Assembly (NCBI GenBank): GCA_020049575.1
Contig: JAIFKM010000140.1
Coordinates: 1-40,476, forward strand
DNA length: 40,476 nucleotides
Reading direction: 5' to 3'
Source of the DNA: Desulfobulbaceae bacterium
GTDB lineage: Bacteria > Desulfobacterota > Desulfobulbia > Desulfobulbales > Desulfocapsaceae
Shown here: positions 29,820 to 31,498 of the stretch, one piece after another
Layout: the number at the start of each line of letters is the position of its first letter
Position numbering within the stretch: the stretch's first letter is position 1
Translations under genes and position numbers: made by a program
Notes under the pieces: model-generated
Told to the model about the DNA's origin: nothing
Databases searched by the model: none
The model's input: the letters and a program-made list of their open reading frames with translations, nothing else

Positions 29820-29870
29820 TTGACAATCCGGCCAGTTCGTATAGTATATGATCAGATACTCATATATAAT
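29820..29870 (+). promoter_or_regulatory. Promoter and operator-like palindrome upstream of arsR
   Basis: TTGACA (29820-29825) is followed after 16 bases by TAGTAT (29842-29847). Overlapping and just downstream is the perfect inverted repeat TATATGA (29845-29851) / TCATATA (29860-29866) with 8 bases between, the AT-rich form typical of ArsR/SmtB operators. A TATAAT also occurs at 29865-29870. Autorepression of the repressor-permease unit is inferred. Confidence 0.65.
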
Positions 29871-29894: not shown

Positions 29895-30251
29895 ATGGAG
29901 CAGGATAATTGCGGCAGCAGAATCATCCATCTGGAAAAAGTCGTCGGGGCTCGGGGAAGGGCCTTGCCGGCCGCTGAAGTTGAGGCGATCAGTCAGCTGT
30001 TCAAAGCCTTCGCCGATCCGAGCCGTTTACGCATTCTCCATGCCCTGCGGGTCGAAGAGATGTGTGTATGTGATCTCTCAGCCTTGCTCGAGATCTCCGA
30101 GTCAGCGGTCAGCCATCAGCTCAGGCTACTGCGCACTCTTCGTCTTGTGACCAACAGGCGCGACGGGACTGTACTCTATTATCGTCTGCTTGATGCCCAT
30201 GTCACTGAGTTGCTTGATCTCGCCCTGCTGCATCTGCGTGAAGAAAAATAG
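29895..30251 (+). CDS. ArsR/SmtB family metal-sensing repressor
   Basis: A 118-residue winged-helix repressor. The HTH spans FKAFADPSRLRILHAL to SESAVSHQLRLLRTLRLV, followed by the wing RRDGTVLYYRL. Two cysteines lie in MCVCDL (C57, C59), the same place as the ELCVCDL metal site of the alpha3/alpha3N sensors (ArsR, CadC), and Cys6 could be the third, N-terminal ligand. Such sensors leave DNA when soft metals bind; Cd, Pb, Zn, Cu, or As(III)/Sb(III) are possible. AGAGGA precedes the ATG by four bases. It sits 56 bases upstream of the efflux permease and is almost surely its regulator. Confidence 0.93.
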   Translation: MEQDNCGSRIIHLEKVVGARGRALPAAEVEAISQLFKAFADPSRLRILHALRVEEMCVCDLSALLEISESAVSHQLRLLRTLRLVTNRRDGTVLYYRLLDAHVTELLDLALLHLREEK

Positions 30252-30307: not shown

Positions 30308-31498
30308 ATGATGGCGACTCTATTCACCTTTGCTTTTCAGATATTCGCCGAGGCCTGGGAGATCCTGCTGGACTCTTCGGTGTACATACTCTTTGGTATT
30401 TTCATGGCAGGGCTCCTCAAAGTTGTTCTGAACCCGAACACTGTTGCCCGCCATCTTGGTCGGGGCCGCTTTCTCTCGGTCCTCAAGGCCGCCTTCTTCG
30501 GCGTGCCCCTCCCTCTCTGATCTTGTGGTGTGCTGCCGGCGGCAGCAGCATTGCAAAAGCAGGGGGCCAACAAAGGGGCGACAACTGCCTTTCTCATTTC
30601 CACCCCTGAATCCGGCGTGGATTCAATCGTCGTGACCTATGCCCTGCTGGATCCGATCATGACCGTGGTGCGGCCGATTGCCGCCTTTGTCACCGCCATC
30701 AGCGCCGGTTTTCTCGAAAATATCCTGCACTGGCCCAAAGATAGCCGGGCCATTGAGGTTGATCGGAGCTGCCCCGTCGACAGGTGCTGTGACGGAATCG
30801 ACTGTCCGGAAGAAATACACAGAAATCACCATCGGCCTCTGGAAAAATTGAGCGCTGGCCTGCGTTTTGCCGCAACCGAGGTCTGGGGGGACATTGCCGG
30901 CTGGTTTTTCCTCGGTCTGCTCCTGGCGGGTCTGATTACCGTCGTCATTCCCGATAATCTCATGGCGATCTGGCTGGGGGGCGGCATGGGCTCGATGTTG
31001 CTCATGCTCGTCATCGGTATTCCCCTCTATATCTGTGCCACAGCCTCCACCCCGATTGCCGCCGCCTTGATCCTCAAGGGTGTCAGTCCCGGGGCTGCGC
31101 TGGTTTTCCTGCTGGTGGGGCCGGCCACCAATATCACCTCCCTGTCGGTGCTGTTTGGCATCCTTGGCAGATGGGGAACTGCCCGCTATCTTCTTGTCCT
31201 CTCTATCTCTGCTGTCTTCTTCGGACTTGCTGTGGACCAGCTCTACCAGATTCTGCACATCTCGCCGAAGGCAGTCATCGGTGAGGCCGCAGAGCTGATA
31301 CCGGAATGGTTGAAGTATGTTGGCGTAATGATTCTGCTGGTTCTTTCCATCAAACCTCTTACTGCCGGATTGCGGAGAAAAACACCAACCGCTTCGAATA
31401 CTCATTTTCAAAGCGGCTTCCCAACACTGCCGCAGGCCGAATCAAAAGGGAACGAACAAAAAACATGTTTGCCAACCTGTGGCTGCGGGCATGATTAA
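30308..31498 (+). CDS. SO_0444-type metal efflux permease, candidate selenoprotein (in-frame TGA)
   Basis: Read through the TGA at 30518-30520, this is a 396-residue membrane protein of the SO_0444 Cu/Zn efflux (DUF318-like permease) family. Residues 60-80 read AAFFGVPLPL-U-SCGVLPAAAA; homologs as I recall them have PLPLCSCGV, so the TGA replaces the first Cys of a Cys-x-Cys pair (U71-S72-C73). Both sides stay in the same frame and all later hallmarks are intact: QKQGANKGATTAFLISTPES, a second GIPLYICATASTP repeat and GPATNITSLSVLFG. Two soluble Cys/His-rich parts, SCPVDRCCDGIDCPEEIHRNHH (about 155-178) and the C-terminal CLPTCGCGHD, suit a metal exporter. No ribosome site supports a separate start after the TGA. 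A hairpin with a G-rich loop begins 10 bases past it. A nonsense mutation is the alternative. GAGGAAG precedes the ATG at 30308. Confidence 0.8.
30518..30547 (+). promoter_or_regulatory. Candidate bacterial SECIS: TGA plus downstream hairpin
   Basis: After the TGA (30518-30520), TGCTGCC (30531-30537) pairs perfectly with GGCAGCA (30541-30547) around loop GGC (30538-30540). The loop starts 18 bases after the TGA and begins with GG, within the spacing and loop preference known for bacterial SECIS elements. The same bases encode Leu-Pro-Ala-Ala-Ala, so the hairpin could arise from codon choice. Confidence 0.5.

Follow-up and report, generated by a model that had tools for sequence, protein, structure and literature searches.

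To our knowledge, membrane transporters known or predicted to contain selenocysteine (Sec) are few. The SO_0444 permeases are a recorded case: Table 1 of a 2026 review (PMC13188914) lists SO_0444 (NF033936) with a UxC motif, one Sec and the example WP_014809615.1, with GenBank annotation as the source, and the text of the review, as far as it was available, names SO_0444 among Sec transporters. Beyond this listing, no analysis of the SECIS, phylogeny, regulator or structure of the Sec form was found in the portions of the literature available. The main text of the deep-Sep paper (PMC12013277) mentions no permease or transporter, and our literature search found no experimental test of a Sec transporter in the SO_0444 family. 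What the family does is known from Shewanella oneidensis, where the available text of PMC3219624 describes an SO_0444 mutant sensitive to Zn and Cu, an annotation backed by complementation, and a gene located beside a ZntR-like regulator. A relative in Nitratiruptor is induced by Cd and Cu, according to the available text of PMC10092412. The metal-export role considered below rests on the Shewanella genetics and this Cd/Cu induction, and the direction of transport, export, would follow by analogy with SO_0444.

The window, as we call the whole stretch of 40,476 nucleotides analyzed here (Desulfobulbaceae bacterium, GCA_020049575.1, contig JAIFKM010000140.1), comes from a draft and probably metagenome-assembled genome (MAG) of 225 contigs that is 75.6% complete. 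It carries a permease of the same family as WP_014809615.1, with the same U-x-C motif, Sec in first position and one Sec in total (Table 1). Cys-type members of the family, including S. oneidensis SO_0444 with its genetically demonstrated resistance role, have Cys where the window permease has Sec. The regulators differ as well, since the window permease lies beside an ArsR/SmtB-type repressor and not a ZntR-like one. Because the UxC form of SO_0444 is already in PMC13188914, the window gene is a further instance of a recorded selenoprotein and mostly not new. A second Sec site, found in another branch of the family, is moderately new.

Table 1. Positions of the features of the locus in the window, and homologs with a TGA at the second site
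Feature	Position	Strand	Basis
Operator-like perfect inverted repeat TATATGA-N8-TCATATA, upstream of repressor gene	29845-29866	+	Pattern search, shuffles
ArsR/SmtB-family metalloregulator, 118 aa, MCVCDL	29895-30251	+	NF033788, 95.8 bits
SO_0444-family metal-efflux permease gene, predicted selenoprotein, 396 aa, Sec at residue 71	30308-31498	+	Single-TGA frame, NF033936 match, purifying selection
UGA predicted to be read as Sec, U of PLPLUSCGV	30518-30520	+	Invariant Cys column; TGA in 43/121 homologs
Core SECIS hairpin, GGC apical loop at 30538-30540	30530-30548	+	Fold energy, synonymous-codon shuffles
Loop-TGA genes: L029, L030/L151, L043/L152, L044/L153, L154, L156, L159, L161, L163			
Loop-TGA genes, continued: L164, L172, L174, L178, L190, L191, L192, L194			

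The permease and its family

The preliminary description had recognized an SO_0444-type frame with a single TGA at the first Cys of PLPLCSCGV and one intact frame on both sides of it. Both observations hold: the TGA is the sole in-frame stop before the TAA at 31496-31498. In a profile search the permease scored 409.8 bits against NF033936, the SO_0444 Cu/Zn efflux equivalog (cut-off 300), over residues 17-349 and model positions 2-349 of 351, and is therefore a family member. It also matched Pfam ArsP_1 (148 bits). SaoE, the permease of the Sao selenoprotein locus, shares this ArsP_1 superfamily, but the window permease reached 174.4 bits against the SaoE model NF040736, under the cut-off of 325, and is not a SaoE member. 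An alignment of 45 diverse family members showed the TGA position (Cys or Sec), Cys73 and Cys243 to be invariant columns. The permease has in addition a Cys-rich loop (C155, C160, C161 and C166) and a C-terminal tail with CxxxCxC. Two distant ArsP_1-type paralogs without in-frame stops were found elsewhere in the same genome (contig C183:11908-12891 and C161:13458-14261).

Recurrence of the UGA codon and its hairpin

After removal of duplicates, 121 distinct Desulfobacterota homologs were available, and the codon at the column of the window's TGA was TGA in 43 and TGC or TGT in 78. That the TGA might be confined to one strain, with Cys in all close relatives, is contradicted by its presence in each of the four congeners, Cys being found in more distant relatives. 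The same TGA occurred in seven of seven relatives from GTDB contigs, among them closed Desulfosediminicola and Desulfopila chromosomes. Cultured carriers of the gene include Desulfopila aestuarii and Desulfosediminicola flagellatus (L023/L020). A phylum survey returned 16 interrupted genes above the family cut-off, and their in-frame stops were all TGA, never TAA or TAG; in 4 of the 16 the TGA was at the second (loop) site. On a tree of the 121 homologs built with the Sec/Cys residue masked, the Sec/Cys label requires at least 13 changes, at least seven of which are forced by well-supported branches. Sec and Cys thus swap at one column.

The hairpin beside the codon was found as had been described, beginning 10 bases past the TGA with its GGC loop at 18 nt. 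It has a stem of 8 bp (30530-30537/30541-30548), with an outer stem extending to about 30516-30563. The minimum free energy of 30515-30565 was -25.8 kcal/mol (z -3.5, none of 200 shuffles being as good). Across the homologs, folding beyond that of synonymous-codon shuffles, in a test covering the 39 nt 3' of the codon, averaged z -1.78 in the 43 Sec genes vs. -0.03 in the 78 Cys genes, with z below -1 in 86% of the Sec genes (Mann-Whitney p 9e-14, uncorrected for kinship). Stems of six pairs or more closing the fixed loop occurred in 35/43 of the Sec genes and 5/78 of the Cys genes. A kinship-aware independent-pairs test of hairpin against Sec went in the same direction at about 5:0, with p 0.06 from too few pairs. 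Covariation at hairpins of the window type was slight because the sequence is nearly invariant. For the homolog L019, which is 81% identical to the window permease, the hairpin region gave z +0.3 with dinucleotide shuffles and z -1.5 with the synonymous-codon test; the latter is preferred, since a dinucleotide shuffle controls poorly for a GC-rich hairpin that lies in coding sequence.

Two departures from this pattern were observed. Three Sec-type genes of one family (L106, L108 and L109, family f59) have another hairpin, whose 4-nt loop reads AGUU or UGUA and lies some 23 nt beyond the UGA; this suggests a SECIS that arose independently. In the Cys-type gene L048 (genome G270, codon TGC), the SECIS position folds into a hairpin of unusual stability (z -3.7), which may be left over from a Sec codon since lost or may be coincidental.

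In a draft, probably metagenome-assembled genome, a TGA that is one base from TGC or TGT could reflect a nonsense mutation or a sequencing error, and the gene would then be a pseudogene ended by a real stop or an intact Cys gene with a misread TGC. This is extremely improbable given the same TGA in all congeners, in 43 of 121 homologs and in closed chromosomes. The dN/dS between the window gene and L019 was 0.10 before the TGA and 0.14 after it, and the latter value places the frame past the TGA under purifying selection. The hairpin is stronger only in TGA genes, and a matched hairpin recurring across 43 genes refutes sequencing error. A split gene, in which translation stops at the TGA and restarts at an internal GTG at 30530 to give two polypeptides that jointly form the permease, has in its favor that an open reading frame from this GTG to 31498 exists. 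Such an arrangement would nevertheless lose the invariant CSC motif and place the restart codon inside the hairpin. The Cys homologs are one chain, the break falls exactly on the Cys column, and interrupted genes always have TGA at the break; we regard a split gene as very improbable. Pseudogene and reinitiation readings were both rejected in view of TGA recurrence, purifying selection, TGA-only interruptions and the hairpin. Judged from sequence evidence, the window permease is almost certainly a genuine selenoprotein, with Sec encoding, hairpin and family membership all legible in the DNA itself.

The machinery for Sec incorporation was partly recovered. Of the genes that the preliminary description had proposed to look for, tRNA-Sec (UCA), that is selC, and a Sec-type selD (contig C12, 6081-7028, minus strand) are present in the window's own genome, and this selD is itself a selenoprotein gene with an in-frame TGA in AAGUAAK. 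Neither selA nor selB was found in the 75.6%-complete MAG, where the best selB match was EF-Tu, and both are present in 4/4 congeners. In three of these four, the start of selA lies no more than about 420 bases from the end of a contig (G522 C195:185, G523 C127:417, G524 C48:371), a place where assemblies in this genus tend to break, which makes an assembly gap a plausible cause of the missing selA and selB. In the phylum survey, selB was present in all 15 genomes with a Sec-type gene of either site; as nearly all genomes have selB, its association with Sec across genomes is uninformative.

A probable second Sec site in the Cys-rich loop

Another branch of the SO_0444 family has Cys at the CSC motif and an in-frame TGA in the Cys-rich loop that separates the two repeats, where the motif reads GCGU (for example at 1930-1932 of L030). 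Genes of this type number at least 16, in 15 other Desulfobacterota genomes from nine families, and relatives have Cys at the loop position, as in the GCGC of L167. They carry a hairpin at about +15 of the TGA with an invariant GU in its loop. Across 15 sequences, 91% of the pairs in this hairpin were standard and 17 cells were double-changed (mean in shuffles 4.8, 0/500 as high), a covariation signal that is lost once the partner is shifted by a single column. One gene (L049, the same gene as L181) carries one TGA in the CSC motif (1666-1668) and another in the loop (1915-1917), and is, from its sequence, a candidate double selenoprotein. Among the GCGU-group genomes examined, selB was present in G126, G225, G267 and G307, and also in G071, which has both sites.

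Since the table of PMC13188914 gives UxC with one Sec only, the loop site is apparently unrecorded in the literature available. We lean toward the view that SO_0444 permeases took up Sec at two separate metal-ligand positions (UxC and CxU), each with its own SECIS.

The repressor and the putative metal site

The repressor gene ends 56 bp upstream of the permease start. Its product contains an HTH_5 domain, and its closest solved relatives are SmtB (1r1t, E 1e-21) and CadC (1u2w). It belongs to the same winged-helix family as these two, with a CxC in alpha-3 as in CadC, D-x-H...H-x2-E in alpha-5 and an ArsR/SmtB-type palindromic operator. We take its CVC (alpha-3) and D-x-H-x10-H-x2-E (alpha-5) motifs to be the alpha-3 and alpha-5 metal sites of the ArsR/SmtB family. 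The inverted repeat upstream had a single match within the window and none in 100 shuffles, and a palindrome matching 10 or more of the 12 arm letters precedes the repressor gene in 66 of the 85 homologous loci that have one. The preliminary description had joined repressor and permease into a Sec-based metal-resistance unit. The repressor is indeed there, but it accompanies 33/43 Sec and 52/78 Cys permeases, and an ArsR partner specific to Sec forms was therefore rejected. As the repressor is common beside both forms, what sets this locus apart is Sec; the pairing itself is usual in the family.

Within the permease, residues 65-102 and 237-274 form an internal repeat (ungapped, 15/38 identical, score 73, shuffles at most 38) that sets U71 opposite C243. 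Like the operator and the three invariant residues, this repeat is read straight from the sequence. In an AlphaFold2 model (pLDDT 82.7), helices are interrupted at 66-71 and 241-243, which places residues 71 and 243 in equivalent breaks. The top VIA-align match of the model was ArsB (Z 13.2, 281 residues, 4.8 A), followed by NaCT, NaS1, NaDC, INDY and TRAP transporters; nearly all top rows were IT-type, at Z values of 9-13 that can reflect a common arrangement of helical proteins. Foldseek with the same model gave no match with E below 0.05, and no sequence relative of the permease was found in the PDB. The permease probably has an ion-transporter-superfamily (elevator) fold.

Taken together, an autoregulated repressor with a Sec71 metal-export permease is a very likely reading of the locus. 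The SmtB/CadC-like repressor would bind the palindrome and let go of it in response to a soft or borderline metal ion (of the Cu, Zn, Cd, Pb class), making the two genes an autoregulated metal-resistance pair. SelB and tRNA-Sec would decode UGA-71 as Sec at the hairpin just 3' of it. Sec71 and Cys73 would lie where the first re-entrant hairpin breaks, with Cys243 at the matching place in the other one, and the three would form a selenolate/thiolate metal site in the membrane. The Cys-rich loop and the C-terminal tail may collect metal and load this site, and selenium may improve the binding or exchange of soft metals. We infer the metal specificity of the permease and the geometry of its site, and consider it likely that the permease exports metal and that Sec is part of the metal site.

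A true selenoprotein could have a cargo other than Cu, Zn or Cd, for example arsenite, organoarsenicals or methylated metal species. Such export has been suggested for other ArsP_1-type permeases and for the Sao system, and the window permease has the Pfam ArsP_1 match, the sub-threshold SaoE match and ArsB as nearest structural match. Selenolates also bind As(III) and Hg(II) tightly, as a matter of general chemistry. Another cargo is still unlikely for a permease that scores far over the SO_0444 equivalog cut-off and under that of SaoE, next to a repressor that is closest to SmtB and CadC and has the Cys (alpha-3) and His/Asp (alpha-5) motifs known from Zn/Cd/Pb sensors.

A practical consequence concerns annotation, as gene callers that do not allow for Sec break the permease gene in two or cut it short. 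If Sec was indeed taken up at two metal-ligand positions, its repeated and reversible recruitment would suggest that the selenolate coordinates the exported metal directly rather than serving a redox role. The many Sec/Cys swaps at one invariant metal-site position, with Cys-type members as natural controls, mean that the contribution of selenium to soft-metal binding and transport can be asked directly in this family.
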